Source: Rhizobiaceae bacterium (GTDB lineage Bacteria; Pseudomonadota; Alphaproteobacteria; Rhizobiales; Rhizobiaceae). From it: 64,000 bases of DNA. Below the pieces are notes generated by a model. It saw nothing but the letters and a program-made list of their open reading frames with translations, was not told where the DNA came from and ran no database searches. Below, one piece after another: positions 43,207 to 63,995 of this stretch; positions within the stretch are counted from its first letter, which is position 1, and each line of letters starts with the position of its first letter. The stretch spans positions 112,577 to 176,576 of the forward strand of contig JAHBYU010000011.1 in NCBI GenBank assembly GCA_019635775.1, read 5' to 3'. A program made the position numbers and the translations under genes.

Positions 43207-43282
43207 GCCGCTTTAGCTCAGTTGGTAGAGCACATCATTCGTAATGATGGGGTCGCGTGTTCGAGTCACGCAAGCGGCACCA
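43207..43282 (+). tRNA. tRNA-Thr (anticodon CGT)
   Basis: 76 nt with encoded CCA. Acceptor arms GCCGCTT/AAGCGGC pair fully; the anticodon loop TTCGTAA reads CGT; the T arm is GCGTG-TTCGAGT-CACGC (43255-43271). The 3' half is the integration target of the prophage to its right. Confidence 0.97.
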
Positions 43283-43283
43283 G
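43238..43283 (+). repeat. attL: 46-bp core in the tRNA 3' half
   Basis: The sequence from the anticodon loop to one base past CCA is repeated exactly at 63950-63995 and, with four changes, at 62949-62993. Integration into the tRNA 3' end keeps the tRNA intact. Confidence 0.93.
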
Positions 43284-43330
43284 TAAATTCAAGGCCTTAG
43301 CGCGTTCGTATCGACCCGGCGCAAATCCCT

Positions 43331-43347
43331 ACTCACCAAATACTCAC
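43331..43347 (+). repeat. Left copy of a 17-bp arm-type repeat
   Basis: ACTCACCAAATACTCAC, itself two ACTCAC boxes 5 bp apart. An identical copy lies in the same orientation at 62800-62816 beside the integrase gene. Likely integrase arm-binding site. Confidence 0.7.
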
Positions 43348-43499
43348 ATTCTCTCCCGCTTGACCTGATCGAGCACGCGGCTCCCGGCTTCGCCCAGGAC
43401 ATTGCCGGCCCTCAGCAGATACCGGGCAAGGTAGAGCCTTCCGAGGCGCGTACGCAGCGCCCCGGCAAGCAGCAGGAGGATGACGGCGGTGAAGGTCAT
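43344..43499 (-). CDS. 51-aa membrane-associated phage peptide
   Basis: The ATG at 43499 overlaps the stop of the gene before it (ATGA), which continues the pattern of the operon. It has one hydrophobic N-terminal helix (MTFTAVILLLLAGALRTRLG) and a basic C-terminus ending VKRERM. It is the last gene before the left prophage end, and its stop codon lies in the arm-type repeat. No family recognised. Confidence 0.6.
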   Translation of the reverse strand: MTFTAVILLLLAGALRTRLGRLYLARYLLRAGNVLGEAGSRVLDQVKRERM

Positions 43500-43768
43500 G
43501 ACTTCGCTTCGGCAAAATACGAGAGGACCGCCGACAGGACGTTTTCCGTGAGTTCCGGTTGCCAGCCGCAGTCGCGGTCTTCATCGCGGACCAGCTGGAT
43601 ACCCGCGACAGCGCCGGCCAACGTGGTCGGGATCGGCGGAGCTTCGCAAAGCTGTTTGTACGCATCCCAGAAAGGCTTCTCGCTAGGATCACCCTCCGGC
43701 ACGGCGTTCATCACTACGCGAGCCGCATTGTATTCCTGGATCAGGGTCAGGAGAGGATCGGCCGTCAT
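43496..43768 (-). CDS. 90-aa phage protein of the tiny-gene operon
   Basis: Fourth gene of five overlapping small genes. It is acidic and helical (PLLTLIQEYNAARVVMNAVP, with GWQPELTENVLSAVLSYFAE at the end). It overlaps its neighbours by 4 bp at both ends. No family recognised; probably an early accessory or host-takeover protein. Confidence 0.65.
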   Translation of the reverse strand: MTADPLLTLIQEYNAARVVMNAVPEGDPSEKPFWDAYKQLCEAPPIPTTLAGAVAGIQLVRDEDRDCGWQPELTENVLSAVLSYFAEAKS

Positions 43769-43998
43769 TTTGATCCTCCCTTGAGCGACTTGTAGTTTCG
43801 GTCGATGAGGCCCACCAAGCGAAGGGCAAGCTCATCCGCGATGCGATTGAGCGCTGCCACCTGATCAAGTTCGTGGTTTCGAGTTTCACCGGAGCCATAG
43901 TCCATATCGCTCAGGATGGCACGGACAACGCCGAGCAGTTGCTGTAGGTCGCCAAGGTCCGCATGCAAATCGTCGAGAGTGTACCGGTGAGCGCTCAT
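43765..43998 (-). CDS. 77-aa helical phage protein of the tiny-gene operon
   Basis: Third gene of the operon. Two or three amphipathic helices (DLHADLGDLQQLLGVVRAIL, AALNRIADELALRLVGLIDR) separated by an acidic loop. The helix pattern resembles the 78-aa and 104-aa products upstream, so the three may be distant paralogues. No family recognised. Confidence 0.65.
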   Translation of the reverse strand: MSAHRYTLDDLHADLGDLQQLLGVVRAILSDMDYGSGETRNHELDQVAALNRIADELALRLVGLIDRNYKSLKGGSK

Positions 43999-44309
43999 AG
44001 CTTGCCTCCCTGCGTGGCGTAGCTGACCTCGTCGCGCGTTGTCGCCAAACGGCTGCGATTGTTCGCATGCGTCATATGAAATAGCTGGCCGCGTAGTTCT
44101 TCGGCTTCGTTAGCGCTGTCACGGATCATCCACGCCACCCGCTGGATCGCGCCGGACACGGAAGCCTCGTCAATAGCCTCGGAGACAAGCGCCAAAGCGC
44201 TCGCAAGGTCGACGATTGTTGCCAGCGAGTTTTCCATATTGCAGACGGTCTGCCACGCCTTCGGCAGGATGTTCGGATCGACGACGTCATTGATGCGGGG
44301 ACTGGTCAT
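43995..44309 (-). CDS. 104-aa helical phage protein of the tiny-gene operon
   Basis: Second gene of the operon, overlapping both neighbours by 4 bp. Helical throughout (NMENSLATIVDLASALALVS, GAIQRVAWMIRDSANEAEEL) with a His/Asn-rich tail. No catalytic motif seen. Possibly related to the 77-aa and 78-aa products beside it. Confidence 0.65.
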   Translation of the reverse strand: MTSPRINDVVDPNILPKAWQTVCNMENSLATIVDLASALALVSEAIDEASVSGAIQRVAWMIRDSANEAEELRGQLFHMTHANNRSRLATTRDEVSYATQGGKL

Positions 44310-44542
44310 TTGCTTGCTCCTTCCAGATCCCGCTGCACCTCTTCAATCATGTCAAAGAGGTCATAGCTGGCGCGGGCGATAGCGTTCATCTGCCTGCGGT
44401 CGCCTATGCTGTGCGCGGCCATTGCAATGATCGTCGCGTATTCCTTGGCGGTCTGAAGCCGGTCGCACAGGTCGAGCCTGTCGGTCGTCGATAGGTTCTT
44501 AGGCATGCCTTCGGCGGCTGCCCGAACAGACTTGTTCGGCAT
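44306..44542 (-). CDS. 78-aa helical phage protein, first gene of the tiny-gene operon
   Basis: Starts at 44542 with GGAGAA upstream and reads MPNKSVRAAAEGMPKNLSTT, then two helices (RLDLCDRLQTAKEYATIIAM and AIARASYDLFDMIEEVQRDL). It is the first product from the operator-rich region shared with the divergent XRE gene. No family recognised. Confidence 0.65.
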   Translation of the reverse strand: MPNKSVRAAAEGMPKNLSTTDRLDLCDRLQTAKEYATIIAMAAHSIGDRRQMNAIARASYDLFDMIEEVQRDLEGASK

Positions 44543-44558
44543 GGGGGTTTCTCCGTAT

Positions 44559-44644
44559 CTAGTTATCAGAATGCGTTTACTATGTTCGATAACGTAAATA
44601 CCGGTTTAGGTATTGTCAACGCCTTTTCTAGGTGCGATAACTAG
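44559..44644. promoter_or_regulatory. Divergent promoter/operator region between the tiny-gene operon and the XRE gene
   Basis: CTAGTTATC (44559-44567) and its exact complement GATAACTAG (44636-44644) enclose a third half-site GATAACG (44588-44594) and the dyad AATACC-N6-GGTATT (44597-44614). Opposing -35 boxes overlap at 44613-44619: TTGTCA with GATAAC 17 bp later for the plus strand, TTGACA with TACGTT 17 bp later for the minus strand. This is the layout of a phage switch controlled by the XRE protein. Confidence 0.7.
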
Positions 44645-44667
44645 AAAATACATTTTGAGGGTTTTGC

Positions 44668-44907
44668 ATGCTCACCACGGGAAATCAGTTGAAGGCGGCA
44701 CGCGCTCTGGTCGGCATCGAGCAAAAGGAGCTGGCGGATATTGTTGGCGTGAACGTCAACACGATCCGCAGCATGGAGGCGGCGGCCGGCGGACCCATAG
44801 CGGGGCGCGCACAGAACGTGCAGGCGGTCCAGCGGGCTCTGGAAGGTCGCGGTGTGGAATTCCTCAACCACGGGCGGCCAGGTGTTCGGCTGTTAGGTGA
44901 GCCATGA
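44668..44907 (+). CDS. XRE-family helix-turn-helix regulator
   Basis: 79 aa with a single Cro/CI-type helix-turn-helix (LKAARALVGIEQKELADIVG, VNVNTIRSMEAAAGG) and a short C-terminal strand-like tail (GVEFLNHGRPGVRLLGEP). Divergent from the tiny-gene operon and probably represses both promoters at the dyads between them. Its stop overlaps the HNH gene start (ATGA). Confidence 0.85.
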   Translation: MLTTGNQLKAARALVGIEQKELADIVGVNVNTIRSMEAAAGGPIAGRAQNVQAVQRALEGRGVEFLNHGRPGVRLLGEP

Positions 44908-45281
44908 CTTCCCCTACCCCGCGCGGACGCATGTCCCAGAAGCGCCGGCAGCACATTTTCTCCGAGCACTGCACCGGGCACCATGTCGCGCCGTGCTGCA
45001 TATGCGGCCAGCCGATCCACCGCCACGATGACGAATGGATCATCGAGCACAAGCGCGCCCTCGGGCTTCTCGGCAAGGACAGCAACACGAACTGCGGCCC
45101 GGCACACAAGGCATGCGCCGACGTGAAAACCGCCCAACAGGATATCCCGGCCATCGCCAGAGCGAAGCGTATGGCTCAGGCAGGAGCAAAGAAAAAGCCG
45201 GCGCGGGGTTTTCAGGTCCCGGCCGGCGTCGTGTTCGATTGGAAGAAGCGGCGATATGTGCGAAACATCGCATTGCCATGA
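44904..45281 (+). CDS. HNH endonuclease
   Basis: 125 aa. It has the zinc/catalytic arrangement CCICGQPI, then EWIIEHKRALGLLGKD and NCGPAHKACADVKTAQQD. Phage HNH enzymes often assist packaging beside the terminase; here the terminase is 10 kb away, so it may instead be a homing or accessory nuclease. It overlaps the XRE gene before it and the 91-aa gene after it by 4 bp each. Confidence 0.85.
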   Translation: MTSPTPRGRMSQKRRQHIFSEHCTGHHVAPCCICGQPIHRHDDEWIIEHKRALGLLGKDSNTNCGPAHKACADVKTAQQDIPAIARAKRMAQAGAKKKPARGFQVPAGVVFDWKKRRYVRNIALP

Positions 45282-45553
45282 AAAAGTTCGCCGACAAGCT
45301 CCTTGCTGCATCGGAAGATGAAGACATCTCCCGCGAGGAATTGCAGGAGCTTCTAAGACAGGCTTCTGAAAAGATTCGAGGCAATGACGCGTTCGAAGCG
45401 CTGGAGCGACTTGACGCTCTGAATACCTTGCGCGCTCAGCGGGGAGAACCCTTGCTCGGGCTCGAATCTATCCTGGACGACTGGTCGATCAGCCAAGGCG
45501 ACCTACCTTGGACCGACCTGGACGAGGATACCGAGACGAAGGGAAGCGCATAA
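45278..45553 (+). CDS. 91-aa acidic phage protein
   Basis: Starts at the ATG at 45278, overlapping the HNH stop. It is helical and acidic (KFADKLLAASEDEDISREEL, LLGLESILDDWSISQGDLPW). Last gene of the XRE-HNH cassette. A 20-bp tandem duplication crosses its stop codon. No family recognised. Confidence 0.65.
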   Translation: MKKFADKLLAASEDEDISREELQELLRQASEKIRGNDAFEALERLDALNTLRAQRGEPLLGLESILDDWSISQGDLPWTDLDEDTETKGSA

Positions 45554-45574
45554 GGACGAAGGGAAGCGCATAAG
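45535..45574 (+). repeat. Perfect 20-bp tandem duplication across a stop codon
   Basis: GACGAAGGGAAGCGCATAAG occurs at 45535-45554 and again at 45555-45574. It duplicates the C-terminal codons and TAA of the 91-aa gene. Looks like a recent slippage event. Confidence 0.95.
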
Positions 45575-45579
45575 AGAGT

Positions 45580-45882
45580 TCACTCGTCGGTTTTCTCCGG
45601 CAGCGATTCCCGTCCTTTGCGCTCAATCTCAGCAAACATCGTACTCTCGCTAGGCGACATATGCCCGTTGTGGCGGAAATAGTCCGCAGGCCGGTTGCCG
45701 AGTACGTTGACGGCTTTCCGCAGATCCTTTCGGAGCTGCATCATTGCCTCCCCGTGCGGGGTGTAATGGTTCATGCCGATACTGGCGTGGATGATCGCTA
45801 TTTCCAGCAGATCGGCTTGGCGTTCGATCTTGTCGAAGTCGGTGCGGTAGATTTCAGTCCTCAGTTTCTTGCGGCCCGGCAT
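45580..45882 (-). CDS. 100-aa phage protein of unknown function
   Basis: The ATG at 45882 has GAGGAAAG upstream and is preferred to an ATG at 45972. Helical (DFDKIERQADLLEIAIIHAS, AMMQLRKDLRKAVNVLGNRP). A CCTCAG/CTGAGG dyad lies at 45889-45905 just upstream, and further CCTCAGT copies occur at about 45859 and 45936. No family recognised. Confidence 0.6.
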   Translation of the reverse strand: MPGRKKLRTEIYRTDFDKIERQADLLEIAIIHASIGMNHYTPHGEAMMQLRKDLRKAVNVLGNRPADYFRHNGHMSPSESTMFAEIERKGRESLPEKTDE

Positions 45883-46031
45883 GGCTTTCCTCAGTGCCCC
45901 TGAGGTTGCGGTTAATCCCCTAAGAGGAATATCTTCCTCAGTATCGGTGGCGTCAAGCTGCCTTGCCAGCATCCCGAAACTCCGGCATGCTCTCTCTGGT
46001 TGTGGGAATACAACTTGAGAGGGAGTCGCCT

Positions 46032-46166
46032 ATGAAATCCACCAAGCGTCCTTGTGCGAAGCCTACCTTGAAGAAGTCACTGATTTTGCAGTCAGTGACC
46101 GCCCAGACAGCGGGCACGGCTCCTCCGGATGATGACACTATCGTCGATATCGGCGGCCAGACTTGA
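46032..46166 (+). CDS. 44-aa peptide with leader/core-like layout
   Basis: The ATG at 46032 has AGGGAG 8 nt upstream and a strong terminator 9 bp after the stop, so it is an independent unit on the strand opposite to its neighbours. The peptide has a basic N-terminal half (KSTKRPCAKPTLKKSLILQS) followed by VTAQTAGTAPP and an acidic, Gly-rich end (DDDTIVDIGGQT). The KPTL...L..VTA pattern recalls short precursors annotated as putative RiPPs in rhizobia, but no peptide-modifying enzymes are adjacent. It could equally be a small regulatory or toxic phage peptide. Confidence 0.5.
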   Translation: MKSTKRPCAKPTLKKSLILQSVTAQTAGTAPPDDDTIVDIGGQT

Positions 46167-46174
46167 TTTTCCAC

Positions 46175-46199
46175 AGCCCGGCCATTGCGCCGGGCTTTT
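46175..46199. terminator. Intrinsic terminator after the 44-aa gene
   Basis: AGCCCGGC (46175-46182) pairs with GCCGGGCT (46189-46196) over a 6-nt loop, followed by TTTT. Confidence 0.85.
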
Positions 46200-46203
46200 G
46201 ATT

Positions 46204-46485
46204 TCACGACGGCGTCTTGCCTACGAAGGCATGCACACCAAGATAGATCAGCCAGAGCAAGCCTGACACCAAAGCCATGATGATGGCGCCGCCGATTTTC
46301 GATGACGCACCGTCCAGACATCGCCTGATCTTCCGCAGCAGCCGGAAGTCCTCCCTCGCCTCATCCTGATCCTCTTGATCGTCGAGACGAAGCCCAACGG
46401 TCGAGAACAGTTCCTTGCGCAGCGAGGTCCGAACAAGGTCCTCGAACTCGTCTTCCGTCAGGTCTGCGATCCGTCGCGCGCTCAT
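46204..46485 (-). CDS. Phage small membrane protein (DUF6127-like)
   Basis: 93 aa from the ATG at 46485. A basic/acidic cytoplasmic part (RRIADLTEDEFEDLVRTSLR) precedes one C-terminal membrane helix (IIMALVSGLLWLIYLGVHAF). Proteins of this form often lie next to lysis genes of rhizobial phages. It is the last gene of the lysis cassette, coupled by a 4-bp overlap to the o-spanin-like gene. Confidence 0.7.
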   Translation of the reverse strand: MSARRIADLTEDEFEDLVRTSLRKELFSTVGLRLDDQEDQDEAREDFRLLRKIRRCLDGASSKIGGAIIMALVSGLLWLIYLGVHAFVGKTPS

Positions 46486-46676
46486 GGCTGCCACCCGCAT
46501 TTCGCTTCGCCGTATTCGTTATGAGAAACGATCCAGCGCTTGTTTCGGTCCCCATAGACTTCCCCCTTCTCGGGACGGTACGCACTCGACACATCGCAGA
46601 AGTTACCGCTTGTCGTGCATCCAGCGATCGAAGCGGTCGTCAAGCTCAGCAGGATCAAGGTTCGCAACCTCATCAT
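46482..46676 (-). CDS. o-spanin-like lipoprotein (Rz1-type)
   Basis: 64 aa. The signal peptide MMRLRTLILLSLTTASIAGC ends in a lipobox with the lipidated Cys. Its first part overlaps the i-spanin gene in another frame over 74 bp, the classical Rz/Rz1 arrangement. Spanins join inner and outer membranes in the last step of lysis. Another reading, a DUF-type lipoprotein, is less likely given the position. Confidence 0.75.
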   Translation of the reverse strand: MMRLRTLILLSLTTASIAGCTTSGNFCDVSSAYRPEKGEVYGDRNKRWIVSHNEYGEAKCGWQP

Positions 46677-46821
46677 CCTTTTCCTTCTTGTCGGAGATTG
46701 CTTCCGCACGGTCCTCTGCCTCCTTCGCCCGGACGTCGCTGGCCTTGGTTTGGCGACCAGCGACGAACACGGCAAGGAAGGCCAGCCCGAGCACGATGAT
46801 GAGCGCGAGCCAGATTTCCAT
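46603..46821 (-). CDS. i-spanin-like protein (Rz-type)
   Basis: 72 aa with one N-terminal membrane helix (WLALIIVLGLAFLAVFVAG) and a charged coiled-coil tail (KEAEDRAEAISDKKEKDDEV). Its start overlaps the stop of the holin-like gene, and its 3' part overlaps the lipoprotein gene in a different frame. This matches the inner-membrane spanin subunit. Confidence 0.75.
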   Translation of the reverse strand: MEIWLALIIVLGLAFLAVFVAGRQTKASDVRAKEAEDRAEAISDKKEKDDEVANLDPAELDDRFDRWMHDKR

Positions 46822-47039
46822 CAGCTCTGGACCGGAGGCTGCACCTTGAACAGGCCGCCGATTCCGTCGCGGACGATGTTCATGGCGAGCTTGATGACCT
46901 TGTCGGCAATCAGCACCCAGCCCGCGACAAGCGCGGCAGTCGTAGGCGACAGACCGAGGCCTGCCCAGTCGAACGTGACGAGCGCTCCGATGATGAGGCC
47001 AATCAGGTTCAGGATGTTGTGGATGGCATTGGCGTTCAT
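46821..47039 (-). CDS. Holin-like protein
   Basis: 72 aa from the ATG at 47039. Two hydrophobic segments (ILNLIGLIIGALVTFDWAGL, AALVAGWVLIADKVIKLAMN) joined by a short loop, as in small phage holins. It sits between the endolysin and the spanin genes. Holins open the inner membrane at lysis. Confidence 0.8.
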   Translation of the reverse strand: MNANAIHNILNLIGLIIGALVTFDWAGLGLSPTTAALVAGWVLIADKVIKLAMNIVRDGIGGLFKVQPPVQS

Positions 47040-47059
47040 GATTTCAGTTCCTTCTGGTT

Positions 47060-47734
47060 TCAGAGACGGGCGGCGACTTCCGCGCGCATGCGGTCGCCGA
47101 TGGCACGAGCGCCCTTCACGGAGCGGTCGAACGGGAGGACAGCCACGTCCCATTTGCCCCTCTGCTTGATGCCGAGGGTTTCCTGGACTTCAGCGTGGCT
47201 GAGCAGCGTCTTGCGCGAGACGTTGATGGTGTAGCGACGGCAGAGCGCCACATGGACGCTCACCAGCCTGTTCCATTGCTCTTCGGTCATCGGAGCCGGG
47301 CCGGCCTTGAACGGGCTTTCCTGAGCCCCTGCCATGCCGCACATGGACGTGCCGATGGCGTCACCGTTGGCATTGAGGGTATGAGCCGCATATCCGGGTT
47401 TCACCGGAGCGTCGTTGAGGTCGATCGACGGGATGCCCCGGATCAGCTTGCCGTCGCCCTCGACGAGGATGTGATAGTGCTTCCGGTCGCCCGCGCTGGC
47501 TTTGTGCTGCCCGGCCGTCCAGTGGAAGATGATGCGGGTCATGACTGCCCACGGCATCCAGTCCAACGGCACGACGCCCGCAGGAGGAAGGTCAACCTTC
47601 CAGACTGGAGCTCCGGGGATGCGGTCCAATGCCTCGTTGATGGCCGCCAGCGTATTCGGGCCGATAGCGCCGTCGATACCGCCAGGGTCAAAGCCAAGCG
47701 CCGTCAGGCGCCGCTGCAAAGCGAGCACGGACAT
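47060..47734 (-). CDS. Endolysin, N-acetylmuramoyl-L-alanine amidase
   Basis: 224 aa. An N-terminal peptidoglycan-binding segment (LALQRRLTALGFDPGGIDGA) is followed by an amidase_2 domain with zinc ligands in IFHWTAGQHKAS, LLSHAEVQ and KWDVAV and the YHILVEGDGKLIRGIP strand. It cuts the cell wall amide bond at lysis. No signal peptide, so it depends on the holin. Confidence 0.88.
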   Translation of the reverse strand: MSVLALQRRLTALGFDPGGIDGAIGPNTLAAINEALDRIPGAPVWKVDLPPAGVVPLDWMPWAVMTRIIFHWTAGQHKASAGDRKHYHILVEGDGKLIRGIPSIDLNDAPVKPGYAAHTLNANGDAIGTSMCGMAGAQESPFKAGPAPMTEEQWNRLVSVHVALCRRYTINVSRKTLLSHAEVQETLGIKQRGKWDVAVLPFDRSVKGARAIGDRMRAEVAARL

Positions 47735-47886
47735 GATGGTCCCTTCAGATTTTCAGGAGGTCAGGCAGGCGCGCCGACGCATGGCGCATGGGGAGCTTTC
47801 GGGGTTAGACCGAGAGGTCAGCGTTGCGCAATCACGGGTTGCGGTTTATTTTCGTGTAAATGCTGTAGTTGCCGGGGGAATGCTGG

Positions 47887-49329
47887 ATGAGACTGTCCAC
47901 TGGGTTCGACAGACTCCGCTCTTACTTCAGCCCCGTCGATCCCGAGCAACTTTGCTTTCTCAACCAATTCCCGGGCGCGCATCTAGCGACAGCATCTGCG
48001 TCTTCTCCGAGGAACCAGATCGGCTTTATTGGCCGTGACCCGGCGAAGTCGCTACCGGCCAGGAATGTGCTGGGAACCACATGGCCCGATGACAGGGCGA
48101 AGCCATACAAAGTCGTGAGCTTCTATACGGAAGACAACGAGTACAAAGACCACGCAGCGAGACTACAAACATCTCTAGAGCGCTTCGGACTTCCGTACTC
48201 CCTATCGTCAAAAAAGAGCAAAGGGACGTGGGAGTTTAATTGCGCCTACAAGGCTCAGTTCATGCGCGAGCAGTGGGAACAGAGTGATGTTCCGATAGTC
48301 TGGCTCGATGCAGACGCGACAGTCGTAGCCGACCCTGTTCTCTTCCGCTCGATCGACGCCGATTTCGGCATCCACAAATGGGAAGGTATGGAGTTCGCCT
48401 CCGGCACGCTCTACTTTGGCAAGTCACCATTGGCCAAGCGCCTGATCGATCAGTGGGCTATCCGATGCGAGGCAGACCCGGCAACCTACGATCAGGTCCA
48501 CCTCCACTCTGCTTGGTGCGACATCAACAGCATCGCACCGCTGAAGACTATCTGGCTTCCTAGGACCTATCTCGACATTTTCGACAAGCCCGTCGAATCC
48601 GGGGCTGTCATTCGACATTGGCAAGCTTCGCGTTCGTCCAAAAAGGACGGTCGTACGACTGCCAGGGAGCGCCCCAGCCTAAACAAGTCTGGTCACCGCG
48701 CTCGACATGCCAACAATCTGTGGCGCACATCCGAAGTCGGCTTCTGGATCACCGAAGGAACCGACCACATCAAACCAGAGACGGGGACCGAATTTCCTGA
48801 AGGTTTCGACGTCGGCGCTGCGCTGCGCGCGCATCTCGGCGATGACCGTCCTTTCCTTGAGGTCGGGTGCGGCGTTGGCCGGATAGCATCACTCTTTGCA
48901 CCTGAGGAGTATGTCGGAATCGACGTGAACCCCAGAGCGCTGAAGCTCGCCCGCGAACGTCTGCCCAACCACGACCTCAGGCTGCACGACGAAGGGTATG
49001 AATACCCTGCCGCTGCCACCGCCCTTTTCTACACCGTGCTCCTCCATGTGTCGGATGCCGATTTAGGAGACGTTCTCAAGCTGGCGGCGAGAAGTCAGCG
49101 GATCGTGATTGCAGAACTGATGAGTCGAAAATGGCGACGCAAGACCGGCCGAGTGCCAGTATTTAACCGGGATGCCTCTGACTATATTCAGGCGCTTTCG
49201 CGCTTAGGCTTCACGCTCGCAAGCGAAACCAAGCATGTCTATGAGCGTTACAATTCGCCCGAGTATGAGGGATATGACCCGCACCTTACGATCCTGAGCT
49301 TCCGGGCCAGCAGGACTAAGGCGCCATGA
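47887..49329 (+). CDS. Glycosyltransferase-methyltransferase fusion, phage cargo
   Basis: 480 aa from the ATG at 47887 (GGGGGAA upstream). The N-terminal ~265 residues look like a GT-A glycosyltransferase of the nucleotide-sugar type, with the metal motif VWLDADATVVADP and FASGTLYFGKSPLAKRLIDQ. The C-terminal ~200 residues are a class I methyltransferase (RPFLEVGCGVGRIASLFAPE, YVGIDVNPRALKLARERL). It is transcribed opposite to the lysis and tail genes around it and is probably a cargo gene that alters a host or virion glycan. Substrates unknown. Confidence 0.75.
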   Translation: MRLSTGFDRLRSYFSPVDPEQLCFLNQFPGAHLATASASSPRNQIGFIGRDPAKSLPARNVLGTTWPDDRAKPYKVVSFYTEDNEYKDHAARLQTSLERFGLPYSLSSKKSKGTWEFNCAYKAQFMREQWEQSDVPIVWLDADATVVADPVLFRSIDADFGIHKWEGMEFASGTLYFGKSPLAKRLIDQWAIRCEADPATYDQVHLHSAWCDINSIAPLKTIWLPRTYLDIFDKPVESGAVIRHWQASRSSKKDGRTTARERPSLNKSGHRARHANNLWRTSEVGFWITEGTDHIKPETGTEFPEGFDVGAALRAHLGDDRPFLEVGCGVGRIASLFAPEEYVGIDVNPRALKLARERLPNHDLRLHDEGYEYPAAATALFYTVLLHVSDADLGDVLKLAARSQRIVIAELMSRKWRRKTGRVPVFNRDASDYIQALSRLGFTLASETKHVYERYNSPEYEGYDPHLTILSFRASRTKAP

Positions 49330-49558
49330 TCGCTTCGGCGTCGGCCCCGATCGCTGCCAGCAGCGCAAGCGATTCCGGATCATCAGCATAGACTTCTGGC
49401 TTGCCCGGTGCGAACCAGCGGGCAAATGCAGAGGGCGATGCGGTGAGTATCGCGTAGGCCGCATCCATCTTGCCGGCGTCGATAAGCCGCTGCTGCACGA
49501 GGCTCTTGGCGATCAGCCGCCGAACAGCCGGCGCGGGCCGTATCGTGATGACGTTCAT
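49316..49558 (-). CDS. 80-aa phage tail-region protein
   Basis: Helical (RRLIAKSLVQQRLIDAGKMD, AAYAILTASPSAFARWFAPG) with an acidic end. It follows the 68-aa gene by a 4-bp overlap and converges on the fusion gene, overlapping it by 14 bp at the 3' ends. Probably a tail-fibre accessory protein; no family recognised. Confidence 0.65.
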   Translation of the reverse strand: MNVITIRPAPAVRRLIAKSLVQQRLIDAGKMDAAYAILTASPSAFARWFAPGKPEVYADDPESLALLAAIGADAEAIMAP

Positions 49559-49761: not shown

Positions 49762-49763
49762 GC

Positions 49764-56824: not shown

Positions 56825-56872
56825 CTATCTACGCTCAGGCATTTTTTGAAATTTTAAAAGAAACGTAGATAG
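56825..56872. promoter_or_regulatory. Inverted pair CTATCTACG/CGTAGATAG in an AT-rich spacer
   Basis: CTATCTACG (56825-56833) and its exact complement (56864-56872) are 30 bp apart, with AT-rich sequence between. GAAAC flanks both arms with one base difference. It lies ~70 bp upstream of the winged-helix gene and downstream of the NusG-like gene. Confidence 0.6.
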
Positions 56873-56986
56873 TTTCAGGGCGCAACTTCCCTGTCAGCAG
56901 GAGGCGATTGTCCTGCACCGCGCCGGCTGGCGACTCTAGGGCCCCGCACAGATCACGCGTATCGCCAAATCATTTCGATACCGAAA

Positions 56987-57514: not shown

Positions 57515-57522
57515 AGCGGGCC

Positions 57523-57822
57523 TCAGAACGGCAGGGCTTCGTCAGGTAGGATACGCTTGCACGATTCCAAATCGAACAGCTTAGGTCGATCGTCGGGAAG
57601 CGGAGCCCCGGCCCACGGTATTTGGCCTGCAATCGGGGAGTTGTCGTTCTGCGCTTTGCGCGGGTCGAGCGATAAATATTTCCAGAGCTTTTCGAGCGCG
57701 CTGTAGCTCTCTAGCGTGGCGAGGTGCGTATACAATCCGCCGTCGTTCTCCACGAGGTAGAGCGTCCAGACATGGTGTTCGCAAACAGCCTCAAGCCCGT
57801 CCCGTTCGGTCACAATGTTCAT
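57523..57822 (-). CDS. 99-aa phage protein of unknown function
   Basis: Starts at 57822, one base after the primase-helicase stop. Mixed alpha/beta sequence (CEHHVWTLYLVENDGGLYTH, ALEKLWKYLSLDPRKAQNDN). It lies between the helicase and NusG-like genes in the early/middle operon. No family recognised. Confidence 0.62.
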   Translation of the reverse strand: MNIVTERDGLEAVCEHHVWTLYLVENDGGLYTHLATLESYSALEKLWKYLSLDPRKAQNDNSPIAGQIPWAGAPLPDDRPKLFDLESCKRILPDEALPF

Positions 57823-57823
57823 T

Positions 57824-59566
57824 TTATTCGCTCCCAAGCGTTCGATAGCTATCCGGCACGGCATGAAAGCGCCGGGCGGCTCCGATGAATTCCAACTTCA
57901 CTGACCCGGGTCGCCCACACATCGGTTGACGCCTGATCTTCTTCGCGATGAGAAACGTGCAGTCCTTTTCGAAATCCCGATAGACCACCAGTCCCGCATC
58001 GGCCTTGTTGCGCCAATGAGCACTGCCCGCGAGGTCGTATAGCCCCGGTACAGGTTCCCGGCCGCCGTCGGGGGCTTTCAGCTTCGTGGGGTGAATGACC
58101 ATCCAGACAGTGCAGCCGTGATGGCTCGCGAACTTCTTGCACTTCGAGATCAGCTGCGAGACGAACTCGGTTTCGGTCAACTTGTCCGGCCGGGAGGCTT
58201 CCAGTTCGTTGTATGGATCGATGACAATGTTCGACACACCATGCCGGATGACAGCTGCTCGTGCGCGCTCCAGGAGCCAGTCGATGCTTGGCGTATGCTC
58301 GACCGCCCCGAGCATGAACACGCGCTCGTTAAGCCATGCCATCGCGTCAGACACGTCTCGGCTGGACATGCGTGGAGTTGGCCCGTCAAAGAACGGAGCG
58401 CCGACCCAGATTTCGCAGAGGTCCGCGATGTGGTTCCCATTGCCGGTTTCAGGCGAGAACAAAGCCCATTTCTCGTCCCGTAGCCGTGCCGTCTGGACGA
58501 TGATCTGGTCGATGACCCGTGATTTGCCGTGGTTTGGAATGCCTGTAACGGCAATGAATTGGCCGGGGACGTATTTGAAGGCCTTGTCGAGTTCGACGAA
58601 GCCCGTTGTCTGTGGCTGCGGCCCCTTACCGTCGTAGAGGTCCATAACCTCCAGTGCAAAGTCTTCGATTTCGTGCAGGCCATCGATAGGCCAAGGTTCG
58701 GCATGCTCGACACACTCGCGAAGGACTTCCTTGCCATGATCAAGCAGGCAGTCGTTGGCATCCTTGCACTGGACGTCGCCGTGCAACGGCATGCGGACGC
58801 GGTAGCATCGGTCACGGCCTACCCGCCGAGCGATTTCCTGCGCAAGCTGTTCGCCCGGTTCGTCCATGTCGGTCGCGATCAGGACGCGCCGGACCTTCAT
58901 CACGGAATCCCAATGCGTCCCAAATGGCTCATAGCGCTTGTCGCTTGTTTCCGGTCCTGACGGCGCACCATTCGGCAATGAGACGACATGCAGGAAGCCC
59001 GCCTCGACCATCGCCATCACGTCGAGTTCGCCTTCGCAGACGATGAGGTCTTCGCTGTCCGCGATACTGTCAGCGTTGAAGAAAACCGGCTCCGGGTCCT
59101 TCTCCTGGCGAAACTGCTTGTCCGCCGTCCGATACTTCACGTTGCGAAGTGTTCCGTCCCATTCGTAGGGGAACGCTATGCAATCCTCTTCGCGTTCGAT
59201 CTGGGGAAACCACTGTCGGGTTTTGTAGACCCCAAACTTTGCCACCGTCGCGGCCGAGATTCCGCGTTTGGCAAACCATGCCAGCAGCGTTTCGGGTCTT
59301 TGCGGTTCAACAACCCGATCAGGACGCCGATATGTCCGTCGTTCGCGGGCCGGACGATACCCTTCGCCGCCAGTCGCGCCGCTCCAGCTACAATGATGGC
59401 AGTTCCAGACTGCCCGGCCGTCATGCTCGATCGTAACCGATAGGCATGGATCGGACTTCTTACGCCGGCTGCTTGAGCAGCTCGGGCATGTCGTCTTGTG
59501 ATTGCCGGGCTTGTCGTCACGAAGCCGTATGCCATGCTCGGAGAGCGCTGAACGTGTGTCCTGCAT
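57824..59566 (-). CDS. T7-type primase-helicase
   Basis: 580 aa. An N-terminal zinc finger (CPSC...CHHCSW, within ~60 residues), a TOPRIM primase domain (VCEGELDVMAM and IATDMDEPGEQLA) and a DnaB-like helicase (Walker A GIPNHGKS, Walker B VIDPYNE, WMVIHPTK). It opens and primes phage DNA, as gp4 does in T7 and Twinkle in mitochondria. It overlaps the preceding gene by one base. Confidence 0.9.
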   Translation of the reverse strand: MQDTRSALSEHGIRLRDDKPGNHKTTCPSCSSSRRKKSDPCLSVTIEHDGRAVWNCHHCSWSGATGGEGYRPARERRTYRRPDRVVEPQRPETLLAWFAKRGISAATVAKFGVYKTRQWFPQIEREEDCIAFPYEWDGTLRNVKYRTADKQFRQEKDPEPVFFNADSIADSEDLIVCEGELDVMAMVEAGFLHVVSLPNGAPSGPETSDKRYEPFGTHWDSVMKVRRVLIATDMDEPGEQLAQEIARRVGRDRCYRVRMPLHGDVQCKDANDCLLDHGKEVLRECVEHAEPWPIDGLHEIEDFALEVMDLYDGKGPQPQTTGFVELDKAFKYVPGQFIAVTGIPNHGKSRVIDQIIVQTARLRDEKWALFSPETGNGNHIADLCEIWVGAPFFDGPTPRMSSRDVSDAMAWLNERVFMLGAVEHTPSIDWLLERARAAVIRHGVSNIVIDPYNELEASRPDKLTETEFVSQLISKCKKFASHHGCTVWMVIHPTKLKAPDGGREPVPGLYDLAGSAHWRNKADAGLVVYRDFEKDCTFLIAKKIRRQPMCGRPGSVKLEFIGAARRFHAVPDSYRTLGSE

Positions 59567-60249
59567 CAGCCCCTCGCCCAGAGGAAGTCATACTCGCTGT
59601 CCGAGGCCAGCGCCTTCGTCACCCATGCCGCCGTGTCGATAACCTGATCCGCTTCAGCCTGCCTGATTTTCGTCAGCACCTTGCGGCTGTCGTTGTCCGC
59701 CTCCTTCAACCACTTGCCGATCAGGCGCCGGGCTTGTCCCTCCGTCTTGCTCGTCTGACGGCAGATGGATGCCAAACCCTCGGCGAAGAGTTCCTGCTTG
59801 AAATCAGGCGGCGCAGAATGCGCCTTAGCTTTAGCTAAGGAATATTCCCTTTTTCTTGTTTGCGTCGCGAGTGCGTCGTTTGCTGCGTCAGATGGCGCGT
59901 CACTTGGTAAGCCGACAATCTGATAATCGTCGTAATTACAAATGGTTATCTGCGTCGCGAGCGCGTCACTTACTGCGTCGATCATTGCGTCGATTTTCAA
60001 ACGCTTCAGGAAACGTCGAACCCGAGCTTCGGGCCATTGCCATTTGGCAGCCATGAAGCGCAGCGACGTAGCGAACTGCCCTCGACCTATCGAGCAGCGC
60101 TTACGGCCGACACGAATTTTGCGCGGCTTCCAAGCCGCCTCACGGATCATCCAGATCCACGCCTCGCGTTCCGTGAACGCTTCCTGGGCGAAGAAATCAT
60201 GCTCAAATATGTCGCGCGCGACCGCGAAGACACCGCCGTTCTTGCTCAT
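59566..60249 (-). CDS. Phage replication initiation / helicase-loader-like protein
   Basis: 227 aa. The N-terminal winged-helix-like region (WIWMIREAAWKPRKIRVGRK, ARVRRFLKRLKIDAMIDAVS) resembles phage replisome organisers, and the C-terminal part (ASICRQTSKTEGQARRLIGK) is helical. It has a Ser/Asp/Ala repeat-like middle (DALATQ twice). Placed just before the primase-helicase in the operon. Function inferred from order and fold pattern. Confidence 0.65.
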   Translation of the reverse strand: MSKNGGVFAVARDIFEHDFFAQEAFTEREAWIWMIREAAWKPRKIRVGRKRCSIGRGQFATSLRFMAAKWQWPEARVRRFLKRLKIDAMIDAVSDALATQITICNYDDYQIVGLPSDAPSDAANDALATQTRKREYSLAKAKAHSAPPDFKQELFAEGLASICRQTSKTEGQARRLIGKWLKEADNDSRKVLTKIRQAEADQVIDTAAWVTKALASDSEYDFLWARG

Positions 60250-60483
60250 TCAGGCAGCGCCTCCGACATCGTGACGGCGCAGAAACGGCAGCACGTTGGC
60301 TGCGACGACAGGCATCTTCGCCAGCTTGGAATTGTCGCCTAGGTAGAGGTTCTGGAATCGGACCCATGCCTGAGCCGTATCGTGGCAGTCAGCGAATGAC
60401 AGCGACTTGTCCGACTTCGCCTTCTTGACTTTCCAGTCTTCCCACGCGTCGAACGCGGCCTGGATTTCAGCCTCTCTGGTCAA
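60250..60483 (-). CDS. 77-aa phage early protein
   Basis: Begins with a helical segment (EAEIQAAFDAWEDWKVKKAK) and continues with FADCHDTAQAWVRFQNLYLG. It overlaps the upstream gene and abuts the replication gene. No family recognised. Confidence 0.6.
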   Translation of the reverse strand: MTREAEIQAAFDAWEDWKVKKAKSDKSLSFADCHDTAQAWVRFQNLYLGDNSKLAKMPVVAANVLPFLRRHDVGGAA

Positions 60484-60710
60484 GCAGCACCCCTTTCCGC
60501 CGTGGAGTTCACCGGCTTGGAGAGTTTTTCGGCCGCGTAGACATCGAGGAATTCCGGCCGGTAGTACGGAATGCGACCGAAGTATTCCATCGGCGGGCCG
60601 CCGCCGACAGTCGCCATCTTGTTGAGGGTCGCGACGGCTATCTTGATTCCGTGCTTCCTCAACATGTAGCCAGGCACTTCCGACCGGCGCAGGCGAGGCA
60701 TGTCCATCAA
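60480..60710 (-). CDS. AlpA/excisionase-like small DNA-binding protein
   Basis: 76 aa. The pattern RRSEVPGYMLRKHGIKIAVA, then PPMEYFGRIPYYRPEFLDVY, is a small MerR-like/AlpA-type winged helix used by excisionases and phage regulators. It overlaps its neighbours by 4 bp. It could assist excision or activate early genes; no test is possible from sequence. Confidence 0.62.
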   Translation of the reverse strand: MMDMPRLRRSEVPGYMLRKHGIKIAVATLNKMATVGGGPPMEYFGRIPYYRPEFLDVYAAEKLSKPVNSTAERGAA

Positions 60711-60883
60711 CGAGCCCCCGCTTCCTGCGAAGGGGTCGAGGACAAACCCTTTGCTTTCATCGCTGCGCGGATAGCGCGCACGATTTCGCTGTTCTGTGAA
60801 CTGGCGTTTATTTTCGCTTCAGCTTCGACGAATGCCTTTGCATCAGCGGGCAGGCGGATTTTCAGTTGGCGGGATGTATCCAC
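60707..60883 (-). CDS. Ribbon-helix-helix (Arc-like) regulator, small
   Basis: 58 aa from the GTG at 60883 (GAAGG upstream). The sequence TSRQLKIRLPADAKAFVEAE, then SSQNSEIVRAIRAAMKAKGL, is an Arc/MetJ-type ribbon-helix-helix. First gene of the leftward replication operon and divergent from a second RHH gene. Two palindromes between them are likely shared operators. Confidence 0.75.
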   Translation of the reverse strand: MDTSRQLKIRLPADAKAFVEAEAKINASSQNSEIVRAIRAAMKAKGLSSTPSQEAGAR

Positions 60884-60905
60884 GCGCGAGCCTTCCTTAA
60901 CCAAT

Positions 60906-60937
60906 GTACCTGATAGGTACGGGTACCTTACAGGTAC
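60906..60937. promoter_or_regulatory. Twin 6-3-6 palindromic operators between the two RHH genes
   Basis: GTACCTGATAGGTAC (60906-60920) and GTACCTTACAGGTAC (60923-60937) are both perfect palindromes with a 3-bp centre, spaced 17 bp centre to centre. Adjacent operator pairs like this suit cooperative binding by ribbon-helix-helix dimers, as in P22 Arc/Mnt regions. Confidence 0.8.
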
Positions 60938-60999
60938 CTCTGGCGTCAAGGACCTAAATGGTTCATAACGGCCCCAATCACGGAAATGTGGGGAAAACC

Positions 61000-61530
61000 A
61001 TGGCGACGCCAAAGCAAACCGATCCGCAGTTCAAGCTGCGGCTAACCGGTGACCTGCGAGACAAAATTGAAACGGCTGCGAAAGCGAGCAATCGATCAAT
61101 GAATGCAGAGATGATCGCCCGACTCGAAGAAAGTTTCAGCGACAATGGCAAGGCTCTGCTTGAGGCTACGTTGGTAGTTGAGTCGCTACGAAAGAATCTT
61201 ACCGAGCGCATCTGGAACTACGACCAGATGGCGAAGGGACTGCAGAAGCGGGAGGCTGAACTCAATCAGTTGCTGAACGATAAAGTGGACGTGATCGAGA
61301 TGGCAATTTCCGCCCGGCGGGAGGAACTGGAAGCGGAATATCAAAGGATCATGCAATACGCTGAGGAGCAGAGGCGGAGCGCGGACGAATATGCCGGCTT
61401 CACCGTCGCGCGAGAACGTCAGTTTGTAGAAATGATAAAGCTTTTGACCGGCAAGGAGCCGCCACCCGTTCAGAAAGTTCCGCGCGGAGAGTTCCCTTCG
61501 GAGAAGAAACCAAGAAAGACACGCCGCTAG
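61000..61530 (+). CDS. Arc-family ribbon-helix-helix regulator with coiled-coil tail
   Basis: 176 aa from the ATG at 61000. N-terminal Arc-like domain (QFKLRLTGDLRDKIETAAKA, SNRSMNAEMIARLEESF) followed by a long coiled coil (residues ~65-150, e.g. GLQKREAELNQLLNDKVDVI) and a basic Lys/Arg-rich end. Probably the prophage repressor or its antagonist, acting at the adjacent twin palindromes. It converges on the integrase gene with a 4-bp overlap of stops. Confidence 0.78.
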   Translation: MATPKQTDPQFKLRLTGDLRDKIETAAKASNRSMNAEMIARLEESFSDNGKALLEATLVVESLRKNLTERIWNYDQMAKGLQKREAELNQLLNDKVDVIEMAISARREELEAEYQRIMQYAEEQRRSADEYAGFTVARERQFVEMIKLLTGKEPPPVQKVPRGEFPSEKKPRKTRR

Positions 61531-62783
61531 GCCATCTGTTTCTCGACTTCGCCGGCAATCTTGTCCGCCGCCGCGACCAACACAGCATCCAGCCGATGGG
61601 TATAGCGTGAAGTTATGCCTAACCCGCCATGCCCCAAGCACGCTCCGATCGTGCTGTCCGTAAAGCCGAGGTCGGCACCAACGCTGGCAAAGGAGTGCCG
61701 GAGAACGTGGGGAGTCACGTCGTCCAACCCGGCCGCCTTGAATAATCCGCGATACGACCGCTTGACGCCGGCATACGGCAGATCATCGAGCCGAGGAGCG
61801 GGAAACACGTAGAGGTTTTCCTCGCGCCTATACGCGTGCACGCGCGCGAGAAGAGCCTTCGCGGGAGCGCCAAGCGGTCGGACGGATTTCCCGGTCTTGG
61901 AATCACTCAGCACGAGCAGCGAGTTTTCAAGATCGACTTCTGACCATTGCAGGTTTTCCACCTCACCGATTCGGCAGCCAGTCAGAGCGGCAAGCTTGAG
62001 CATTGCCGGCCCCTGCCAGGACGGCGAGGCCATGCCCTCAGCGACAACCTTTCCGAAGGCCTTATATTCGGCAGGCGTCAGTCGGCGCTCACGCTTGTTG
62101 CCTGCGGGCTTCTTCACGCCGAATGTCGGATTGACCTCGATAATTCCCTCACCAACTGCATAGGAAAGGATCGTGCCGAGCGCCGCTGCCGAGCGCGTCG
62201 CAGAGCCGGCGCCGCCTGACACACGCACCCTGCCCCGCAGCTTTCCGGATGGTTCCTTGGCCTTTGCCGTCTTACCCGACTGGACGTCGCGAATGAATTT
62301 CACCACGTCAGCCCGCTTCAGGTCGATGACGAGCTTCTTGCCGAGCAGCGGCTTTACATGCGCCTCGACCATGCTCTTGTCGGCCGAGAGCGTGCGCGCC
62401 TTCTTCGGTAGCCCTTTGCGCCCGATGACAAGGCCCTTCCCAGCCGCCGCGAAATAGTTGTCGCAGAGTTCGGCCACGGTCAGGGACTTCCGCCTGGTCT
62501 TGCGTTCGAGTTGGGGGTCTTCGCCCTGCACGGTACTGCCGAGCGTCCTGATCGCGAGCTTGCGAGCCTCTTCCGTGGTTAGCAAGCCATGCCGGCCGAT
62601 CGTCATGCGCCGACGCGCGTTCCCGGCCCGGTAATCGACGAAGTAGGTCTTCGTACCTTTCGGGTTCTTGGCAGTGGCGGGGTTCACGAACACACCGAAT
62701 CCCTTGAGGTCAGAGCACCAGACGGTGTATTGCTTTGCGCGCGGTTCGTTCTCGTCGACCACGCTCTTGGTGAGCTTCGGCAT
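61527..62783 (-). CDS. int: Tyrosine site-specific integrase
   Basis: 418 aa. An N-terminal DUF4102-like arm-binding region (SDLKGFGVFVNPATAKNPKG, RRRMTIGRHGLLTTEEARKL) precedes a SAM-like core-binding domain and the catalytic domain, with Arg in TGCRIGEVENLQW, His-x-x-Arg in HVLRHSFASVG, His in LGHGGLG and the Tyr nucleophile in SRYTHR. It directs integration into tRNA-Thr and lies 165 bp from the right attachment core, as expected for a phage int. Confidence 0.94.
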   Translation of the reverse strand: MPKLTKSVVDENEPRAKQYTVWCSDLKGFGVFVNPATAKNPKGTKTYFVDYRAGNARRRMTIGRHGLLTTEEARKLAIRTLGSTVQGEDPQLERKTRRKSLTVAELCDNYFAAAGKGLVIGRKGLPKKARTLSADKSMVEAHVKPLLGKKLVIDLKRADVVKFIRDVQSGKTAKAKEPSGKLRGRVRVSGGAGSATRSAAALGTILSYAVGEGIIEVNPTFGVKKPAGNKRERRLTPAEYKAFGKVVAEGMASPSWQGPAMLKLAALTGCRIGEVENLQWSEVDLENSLLVLSDSKTGKSVRPLGAPAKALLARVHAYRREENLYVFPAPRLDDLPYAGVKRSYRGLFKAAGLDDVTPHVLRHSFASVGADLGFTDSTIGACLGHGGLGITSRYTHRLDAVLVAAADKIAGEVEKQMA

Positions 62784-62799
62784 AGCGGCTCCTTCGCAA

Positions 62800-62816
62800 A
62801 CTCACCAAATACTCAC
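62800..62816 (+). repeat. Right copy of the 17-bp arm-type repeat
   Basis: Identical to 43331-43347 and in the same orientation, just upstream of the integrase start. No third copy was seen in the ~1-kb segment to the right of 62994. Confidence 0.7.
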
Positions 62817-62901
62817 CACGAAAACGGAAACGTGGGAAGATGGCGGAAAACTCGGGAGAGCGTCAGAAAGCCGCAAAGCCTTGCAGGACAAGGGAAAAGA
62901 A

Positions 62902-62947
62902 AAGCCCGGAAAGGTTGTGAATATTCACGCCAACCTTATCCGGGCTT
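62902..62947. terminator. 46-bp hairpin beside the att core
   Basis: AAGCCCGG pairs with CCGGGCTT (62902-62909 with 62940-62947) and inside it AAGGTTG with CAACCTT (62911-62917 with 62931-62937). On the minus strand the stem is followed by TTTTCTTTT, so it could stop transcription entering int from the right. It may also be a recombination directionality site. Confidence 0.6.
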
Positions 62948-62948
62948 C

Positions 62949-62993
62949 TTCGTAATGATGGGGTCAGGTGTTCGAGTCACCTAAGCGGCACCA
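62949..62993 (+). repeat. Middle attachment copy with compensatory T-stem changes
   Basis: 45 bp matching the tRNA 3' half from TTCGTAA to CCA, except that the T stem is AGGTG/CACCT instead of GCGTG/CACGC. The four differences form two changed base pairs, so the fold is kept. Confidence 0.9.
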
Positions 62994-63949
62994 CTTAAAT
63001 AGCTGAAATTGCTGCGCTTTTATCGTTTCGACGCCAAAAAAGTTATTTGTGATCGATCCTCAAATAAGCGAAATCACTAGCCAATCCGGGGAAACGTCAT
63101 GTCAAATAAGGGCTTTCCGCAGCAGTGGTCGTTCTTTGGGCGCGTCCTTCCAGAGCGAGTGGGGCTTACCTTCAACCTACCGGGTCTGACTGGAAATGTG
63201 CCCGACCTCAATGTTTCGTTCAAAATGGTGGCCCATATCCACTCGTCACAAATCGTTGCCCGTATAGAACTGCTGCACGGTGAGCCTGACATCTACACCT
63301 TGCGGAATCTTGTTGAAGGCGTTGTCCGCTCCAACCTCGATTTGATCGGATTTCTGCAGGGTATCAGTCTTGATGTCGAAATCGTCTCCTGTGCCTCGCT
63401 GGATGGAGATTGGCAGATATTCGGAGCGGAGGTACCGTTTCTATATGACTACAGCGCCAATGTGCACAGCGAGATCGATCAGGCTTTTCTTAAAAAGGTT
63501 CTGTCCGACAGCACTGTAGAAATTATGCTGTCTGACTATCGAGAGGCGATGCGAGTCCCATTACAGACAGGCTTCTTTTGCTACCGCTCAGTTGAAGCCT
63601 GTATGCAATCGTTTCGTGACAACGGGACAAAGTCAAAGGAAGCTGGTTGGGAGGCGTTGCGAACCAGTCTCAATGTTGACCGGACAGCAATAAATATCAT
63701 CAAAGAACATGCCGATTGGGCCCGACATGGCGAGGTTGGTTTCATCATCTCAGACCAGCGCAAAACTGTGCTTTCGATTATCAACGAAATTATTCGGAGA
63801 TACCTTGAGTTTGTATTCCACGATCGACAACCCCTTGCCCTCTCAGACTATCCGTTGCTGAATTCTGCCCCAGTGGCAGAACAAGCGGCGCCGCTCGTTG
63901 CTCACAGCTGAGGGCGTTCTAACGTCGCCCCCTACTCAACAGCAGGATT
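62994..63949. mobile_element. ~1-kb integrase-less segment between two attachment copies
   Basis: Bounded by the middle copy and the copy identical to the tRNA. It holds one gene and short flanks. It could be the remnant of an older element, or a passenger that moves with the adjacent prophage. Confidence 0.65.
63099..63911 (+). CDS. 270-aa unknown protein, possible HEPN-like C-terminus
   Basis: Starts MSNKGFPQQWSFFGRVLPER, preceded by GGGGAAA. Visibly more AT-rich than its neighbours, which suggests transfer. The N-terminal half is beta-rich (FKMVAHIHSSQIVARIELLH), the C-terminal half is all-helical (CYRSVEACMQSFRDNGTKSK, RTAINIIKEHADWARHGEVG, RKTVLSIINEIIRRYLEFVF). The last pattern recalls HEPN-type helical domains of defence proteins, but this is only a visual resemblance. 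It is the only gene between two attachment copies. Confidence 0.6.
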   Translation: MSNKGFPQQWSFFGRVLPERVGLTFNLPGLTGNVPDLNVSFKMVAHIHSSQIVARIELLHGEPDIYTLRNLVEGVVRSNLDLIGFLQGISLDVEIVSCASLDGDWQIFGAEVPFLYDYSANVHSEIDQAFLKKVLSDSTVEIMLSDYREAMRVPLQTGFFCYRSVEACMQSFRDNGTKSKEAGWEALRTSLNVDRTAINIIKEHADWARHGEVGFIISDQRKTVLSIINEIIRRYLEFVFHDRQPLALSDYPLLNSAPVAEQAAPLVAHS

Positions 63950-63995
63950 TTCGTAATGATGGGGTCGCGTGTTCGAGTCACGCAAGCGGCACCAG
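63950..63995 (+). repeat. attR: 46-bp copy identical to the tRNA 3' half
   Basis: Exact repeat of 43238-43283, including CCA and one further base. It marks the outer right border of the whole mobile region. Confidence 0.93.

Follow-up and report, generated by a model that had tools for sequence, protein, structure and literature searches.

A 956-bp segment with a single gene lies next to a tRNA-Thr(CGT) gene of a Rhizobiaceae bacterium (assembly GCA_019635775.1), as the second of two elements in tandem, of which only the first, a prophage, carries an integrase. It was analysed within a stretch of 64,000 nucleotides of contig JAHBYU010000011.1 (positions 112,577 to 176,576), here called the window, whose numbering is used below. 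We favour, with fair confidence, the reading that the segment is a minimal integrated unit, in which one cargo gene is held between att-type copies of the tRNA-Thr 3' half and which has no recombinase of its own. The features that carry this reading are as follows.

43207..43282, plus strand: intact tRNA-Thr(CGT) gene (ARAGORN); its 3' half, 43238-43283, is att copy 1 (46-bp repeat)
62949..62993, plus strand: att copy 2, 91% identical to the tRNA half, with T-stem allele AGGTG/CACCT
62994..63949: small unit of 956 bp with one gene, between att copies 2 and 3
63038..63072, plus strand: 35-nt stretch that resembles one at the end of contig C18 (83% identity); its core, 63046-63066, is TTTGNGATCGATCCNCAAATA
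63099..63911, plus strand: gene of an unnamed protein family, 270 aa, with no library match; model pLDDT (predicted local distance difference test) 91.3
63950..63995, plus strand: att copy 3, 46/46 identical to 43238-43283

Three copies of the tRNA-Thr 3' half

The initial annotation, made from the sequence alone, had described the tRNA-Thr 3' half as present three times (at the tRNA, at 62949-62993 and at 63950-63995) and had taken the arrangement for two elements in tandem. The three copies are there, and the tandem is borne out by the att copies, by the alleles of the tRNA and by the absence of the small-unit gene from three sampled congeners, of which one is 87% complete. The tRNA-Thr gene is the sole tRNA gene found by ARAGORN in the window; the repeated half begins in its anticodon loop, and all three copies have the same orientation. 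A chance repeat is excluded, because the copies give BLAST E-values of 1.1e-16 and 1.0e-10 within their own genome, where searches with the tRNA-half sequence returned weaker matches only and no further copy comparable in length and identity.

Copy 2 departs from the outer copies by four differences, which form two compensated pairs of the T-stem (GCGTG/CACGC to AGGTG/CACCT). The form AGGTG/CACCT is the native tRNA-Thr allele of congeners G001 and G002, and the outer form (GCGTG) occurs in congener G003. As read from the sequence, such a compensatorily paired allele, native in two congeners, is the footprint of site-specific integration. The anatomy suggests that the small unit was inserted at the tRNA by site-specific recombination. 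Assuming strand exchange in the anticodon loop, AGGTG would have come with the core of the unit, and the GCGTG end of the host would have been displaced to copy 3, so that one outer copy would be that of the prophage and the other that of the former host; a prophage with a GCGTG core would have integrated at the tRNA before or after the unit to give the tandem, and the reading of the alleles holds irrespective of which came first. The recombinase of the small unit would most likely have been supplied in trans by another element. The T-stem alleles matter as direct records of which end is the host's and which is the element's. Among relatives (L012-L041), the T-stem of tRNA-Thr(CGT) takes at least five compensated forms, two of them within one genus (4 genomes), a possible record of 3'-half swaps driven by integrases.

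The small unit

The 270-aa open reading frame (ORF) is the only one of note in the 956 bp and has no Pfam match; the others listed there (50-71 aa) overlap it. No recombinase, integrase relic or transfer gene was seen in the unit by ORF list and Pfam, in agreement with the earlier description of a one-gene interval lacking a recombinase. Its description as AT-rich is right in relative terms: the segment has a GC content of 49.7%, lower than the 62.9% of the left host flank and the 59.3% of the prophage. Among 150 relatives, a homologue of the gene was found in one (23% identity), in a stretch without a tRNA gene, so that the segment was never seen as ordinary chromosome beside tRNA-Thr; a genome with the segment at tRNA-Thr and no prophage, which had been proposed as a check, was likewise not found among them. 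Searches of the relatives and of the genome_contigs and viral_contigs collections revealed no close relative or ancestor of the small unit.

The right flank and contig C18

The contig that holds the window (C3, 176576 bases) ends 5 bp past copy 3, at the same point as the window itself, a fact that the initial annotation had no means of seeing. Where names such as ABC operon, miaB, FMN-reductase, cold-shock, BLUF, phosphoketolase, SRAP and attC are used in this report, they are readings of the sequence and not database results, unless a search is named. An ABC-transporter-like operon follows tRNA-Thr in five of 15 relatives, at 0.76 kb (G034), 6.4 kb (G003), 8.5 kb (G031), 8.8 kb (G002) and 13.4 kb (G001), and this spread of distances marks the place as an insertion hotspot; within the stretch compared, the other 10 gave only weaker matches to paralogous operons. 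The copy of this operon in the genome under study lies on contig C18, 6.9 kb from its end. The end of C18 and the left end of the small unit also have the 35-nt stretch in common (score 40, against a maximum of 31 in 500 shuffles), and its core TTTGNGATCGATCCNCAAATA, with at most one mismatch allowed, occurs nowhere else in this genome and was absent from 100 other relatives. By operon synteny and shared motif, C18 is the likely right flank of copy 3; if the spacing is alike, perhaps 15-20 bases are missing between C3 and C18. The right flanks of G001 and G002 (5.3 kb each), tried as guides to the missing flank, had no match in the own genome, and the near flank of G003 gave four scattered matches, the best of them mid-contig on C32 and C12; it was the ABC block farther out that resolved the placement.

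The 35-nt motif is near-palindromic, and as both ends carry it, the C18 segment may be a further unit of the same make. By ORF reading that segment holds a BLUF gene, a phosphoketolase, an acetate kinase and others.

The neighbouring prophage

The first interval had been annotated as a prophage with its own integrase, and the Pfam and PHROGs searches agree with this.

43284..62948: prophage between att copies 1 and 2, with PHROGs matches
43331..43347, plus strand: putative integrase arm-type site ACTCACCAAATACTCAC at the left prophage end, a 17-bp repeat whose role is suggested by its position
61527..62783, minus strand: tyrosine integrase, 418 aa (PF00589, E=1.3e-21; PF13356, E=6.3e-13)
62800..62816, plus strand: putative integrase arm-type site at the right prophage end, the same 17-bp repeat, its role likewise suggested by position

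Pfam also places an Arc-like regulator within the prophage. The PHROGs scan covered 18 of its ORFs, including all above 250 aa (our own map has 27 of at least 60 aa), and matched a helicase/primase, a DnaD-like loader, an antiterminator, small and large terminase subunits, a tail fibre, an endolysin and the C-terminal half of an internal virion protein. The tail-fibre-like protein has 27 PHROGs matches, some of them to head-decoration and virion-structural families. No portal or major capsid protein was matched among the 18 ORFs. The gene whose start is overlapped by the large terminase (53850-55400) aligns with no more than positions 719-1397 of a family 1411 positions long. We read the interval as a probably defective prophage with an internal deletion. 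At the megablast level, its DNA has no match among phage records. Within 51595-55400, where the large terminase abuts or overlaps the C-terminal half of the internal virion protein, the genes for portal, major capsid and tail tube appear to have been deleted. On the opposite strand, at 47869-49329, a 486-aa ORF without a clear PHROG match reads like a glycosyltransferase-methyltransferase fusion and is a possible cargo gene.

The initial annotation had further proposed that the prophage integrase could mobilise the small segment. This is not what the putative arm sites suggest: the 17-bp repeat has two matches in the window at up to three mismatches, one per prophage end, where 0.03 would be expected, and the same scan found none in the small segment. 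Confined to the ends of the prophage, these putative sites argue against movement of the small segment alone by the prophage integrase.

A widespread but rare gene family

The window protein has no match in Pfam, PADLOC, PHROGs or NCBIfam. Searches with 16 family members gave nothing convincing either, each best match concerning a single member (E of 0.098 in Pfam, 0.017 in NCBIfam and 0.0004 in PHROGs; in PADLOC, four models each matched one member, with a best E of 0.0011), and no match to family members was found by sequence in the PDB. The family is widespread but rare. Members occur in 6 of 384 other genomes of the class and in 4 of 397 further genomes drawn from the phylum, one of the latter being the same as that found among the 150 relatives. 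The genome_contigs collection yielded 38 loci, with titles that include Alpha-, Beta-, Gamma- and Deltaproteobacteria, Chloroflexi, Cyanobacteria, Bacteroidetes, a Rhodococcus and a Halorubrum, and seven viral contigs carry a member; these relatives were retrieved with an alignment query, the window protein alone retrieving none. With two queries each, matches were obtained in 2 of 72,556 plasmid records and in 0 of 50,697 phage records.

AlphaFold2 with 31 sequences gave the confident model listed above, compared with a pLDDT of 38.4 for a single-sequence fold. In the predicted fold, a beta-rich domain at the N-terminus is followed by a helical C-terminal half; against the PDB and viral models, Foldseek returned nothing at E <0.001. 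R163, E166, R209 and G211 are invariant in the 31 sequences, and H210 is present in 30 of them. In the model, R209-H210 stand at a helix end, with an acidic residue two helices earlier. HEPN proteins carry an Rx4-6H motif, which is known to vary in AbiV and AF0298 (PMC3710099). Such spacing is found in three of the 30 members that have the histidine. We infer for the cargo a stand-alone role in phage defence or as a toxin-like protein, with an HEPN-like C-terminal domain. The earlier suggestion of a defence-type gene is plausible, though unproven: PADLOC gave no match, and the fold resembles HEPN only weakly.

By Pfam names (the first 25 of 81 families), the neighbours of family genes are mostly ordinary chromosomal genes. 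A nearby recombinase is not a rule of the family: when 45 loci were scanned for motifs, a tyrosine recombinase turned up at one and a serine recombinase at one.

Family members in other units and arrays

A few family members are found in comparable units at the ends of other genes, or in what look like integron cassettes. At locus L095 (a Dehalococcoidales metagenome-assembled genome, MAG, of the Chloroflexota), the gene stands between 61-bp, 95% duplicates of the 3' end of an FMN-reductase-like gene, in a unit of 934 bp. At L101 (Lutimaribacter pacificus, an alphaproteobacterium), it is flanked on one side by a 5' fragment of a miaB-like allele and on the other by an intact allele that differs from the first, the unit measuring 1061 bp; the flanking repeat, 26 bp at 85%, comes from the two alleles, and their protein-level pair score of 83 exceeds the 99% null of 65 (250 cross-locus pairs). 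At L106 (a betaproteobacterial Acidovorax MAG), the start of a cold-shock-domain gene is duplicated (69 bp, 93%) on the two sides of a 2035-bp unit that contains the family gene and has room for a second ORF. The proteins of L101 and L095 are 28-31% identical to that of the window.

Other members lie in arrays. The family gene of L103 (Lysobacter) is inside a repeat array, whose repeats, in a crude scan, look like integron attC sites. A 72-bp, 94% repeat behind the gene is common to L049 (an Aliivibrio plasmid) and L122 (Shewanella); these members probably lie in integron-like arrays. On the L049 plasmid, from Aliivibrio salmonicida, the member is close to dfrA1 in an apparent cassette array.

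Three further loci have arrangements of their own. On a viral contig (L066:4617-6942), the family gene is found between an intact SRAP/YedK-like gene and the C-terminal fragment of a second allele (81% DNA identity). L089, the closest relative in genome_contigs (41%), has a 140-bp, 77% copy of an ORF 3' end 6.5 kb away (8759-8898 and 15340-15476), which is perhaps att-like. At L116:7346-16711, a 5-kb tandem duplication carries the family gene twice, and modules of ~600 bp are repeated ahead of gene groups, an arrangement that resembles another kind of cassette array.

Statistical controls

Flanking direct repeats at E<=0.01 were found at 12 of 52 family loci, compared with 33 of 294 random placements on the same loci (p=0.04 without the window); one further locus was skipped, its flank being too short. 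At E<1e-10 the counts are 5 of 52 and 8 of 588 (p=0.011 without the window, 0.048 without the window and L116). The enrichment is modest, and the family loci are not all independent. This control replaced an earlier, smaller one (4 of 68 placements at E<1e-3). In a test of exact repeats, L095 (44 nt), L106 (25), L116 (20), L066 (18) and the window (17) were clearly above shuffles, most others being at shuffle level. Several repeats were set aside as support: those of L116, being part of the 5-kb tandem duplication; those of L098, L107 and L091, which look GC-rich or interspersed; and a 23-nt tRNA-end repeat at L070 (15.5 against a shuffle value of 13.5), which is inside an apparent coding sequence. 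The repeats of L098, L107, L091 and L070 are nonetheless counted among the 12.

In 4 of 52 cases (window excluded), a tRNA 3' end is found no more than 200 bp upstream of the family gene, as against 24 of 8593 random placements. In the tRNA-Lys case, where seven candidates were scored per genome, both the tRNA and the upstream gene have matches in three congeners, and the stretch with the family gene is unmatched among the matches listed. Candidate tRNA-end repeats at L091, L092, L125 and L069 were rejected, as none was above shuffles.

Origin of the small unit

Several observations weigh against a minimal unit with a recurrent cargo family. Neither an empty site nor a circle nor excision was seen; the contig lacks the right flank of copy 3, whose placement on C18 is inferred; and no second copy of the tRNA-Thr end (at least 27 of 36 nt) was found in the 11-20 kb after tRNA-Thr in 15 relatives, a scan that ended before the 20 kb farther out in G001 and G003. 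The enrichment of repeats is only modest, and several of the 12 loci look like interspersed repeats. For L101, the null distribution runs up to 382, and the chance pair at L099, which is GC-rich, has the higher score of 96. The four tRNA-adjacent members concern tRNAs for Lys, Ser, Phe and Met, one of which (Met, L125) is an interrupted gene, and within 3 kb of the four genes no tRNA-end copy exceeds the shuffle maximum. As to function, defence rests on context and a weak fold match: in Foldseek, the HEPN protein AF0298 (2hsb) ranks 32nd, with E 0.51 and TMt 0.53, behind weak matches to unrelated folds, and 7bxo has a TMt of 0.32. Furthermore, six PADLOC families matched at most 7 of the 73 neighbours scanned (72 of 140 listed neighbours, plus one).

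The strongest competitor, which we think possible though clearly less probable than the minimal unit, is that the segment is what decay has left of a larger integrative and conjugative element (ICE), integrative and mobilizable element (IME) or phage, that is, a cis-mobilizable element (CIME) formed by decay, which the prophage joined by accretion. Decay and accretion are the standard account of such tandems (PMC5704250; PMC3146451), and the prophage next door is itself decayed. However, no relic of an integrase or transfer gene is seen in the 956 bp, and two similar-sized units with the same gene family at unrelated targets would be unexpected from independent decay.

It is unlikely that prophage and segment entered together, as a composite formed in another host with the AGGTG allele. 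Such an entry would fit the identity of the outer copies over 46 bp and a middle allele that is native in congeners, but the arm repeat of the prophage ends is absent from the right end of the segment, and recombination between the outer copies by this integrase therefore looks unfavourable. Still less credence is due to a self-mobile unit whose family protein is itself needed for recombination. In its favour, units at several targets have this family as their only or principal gene, with members only 28-31% identical to the window protein (L101, L095); yet there is no Pfam match to a recombinase, the conserved R163, E166, R209 and H210 recall an RNase-like HEPN site, and the L103 gene belongs to an integron-like array, in which recombination would fall to the integron integrase. 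That copy 3 is an assembly artefact, as the end of the contig 5 bp beyond it might suggest, is hardly credible, given that both its flanks differ from those of the other copies, that its allele is not that of the neighbouring copy 2, and that C18 provides a fitting flank by synteny and motif.

The minimal integrated unit remains the preferred reading. A bolder extension of it, which we put forward tentatively and regard as rather doubtful, is that the family defines recurrent ~1-kb units without recombinase that insert into the ends of tRNA or protein genes and regenerate them, the protein being a selfish or defensive passenger or a participant in recombination. The units counted here are those of the window, L101, L106 (2 kb) and L095.

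Comparison with known systems

Protein and unit can be set beside different known systems. The protein recalls the AbiV/AF0298-like branch of HEPN, in that its model has a helical C-terminal half with an R-H pair and an acidic residue roughly at the place of the HEPN motif. It differs in that R and H are adjacent rather than spaced as Rx4-6H, in its beta-rich N-terminal domain and in the weakness of the Foldseek match.

The unit is most like CIMEs in accretion tandems, which, in the portion of the literature that describes them (PMC5704250), have att sites on both sides, no recombinase or transfer gene, an integrase-bearing neighbour and a chimeric middle att. The present case differs in that the unit has 956 bp with a single gene, that its neighbour is a defective prophage and not an ICE, that there is no sign of a larger ancestor and that the same gene family is found in a few similar units elsewhere. 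In Dehalococcoides, 15 islands at ssrA are without an integration module, by the relevant section of the report on them (PMC3146451), and these are alike in that tandem islands occupy one RNA gene, some of them lacking the module; they differ in target (ssrA), in using a serine recombinase and in carrying rdhA and other genes. Islander, as outlined in part of its description (PMC4383910), requires an integrase between a tRNA and its fragment. The prophage interval has one and the small segment does not, and island finders that demand an integrase would miss one-gene units.

Integron cassettes and CALIN (clusters of attC sites lacking integron-integrases) are small units moved by an integrase supplied elsewhere, in the terms of an excerpt on them (PMC11389934), and such arrays seem to harbour relatives of the window gene (L103; probably also L049/L122). 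The window unit differs in being bounded by tRNA 3' halves. No attC-like site was found in window positions 60001-64000 by a simple scan of low sensitivity, which also missed the L049 repeat and most of the L103 repeats.

The architecture is that of the known accretion of cis-mobilizable elements. What the standard CIME account leaves uncovered is the same gene family in similar-sized units at unrelated targets; a limited search of the open-access literature found no description of one-gene units with a recurring gene family, and such recurrence would be new, with statistical support that is modest. If the pattern holds, single genes travel from one gene end to another in much the way that integron cassettes do between attC sites, and the protein family, itself undescribed, offers a ready marker for finding such units and putting them to the test.

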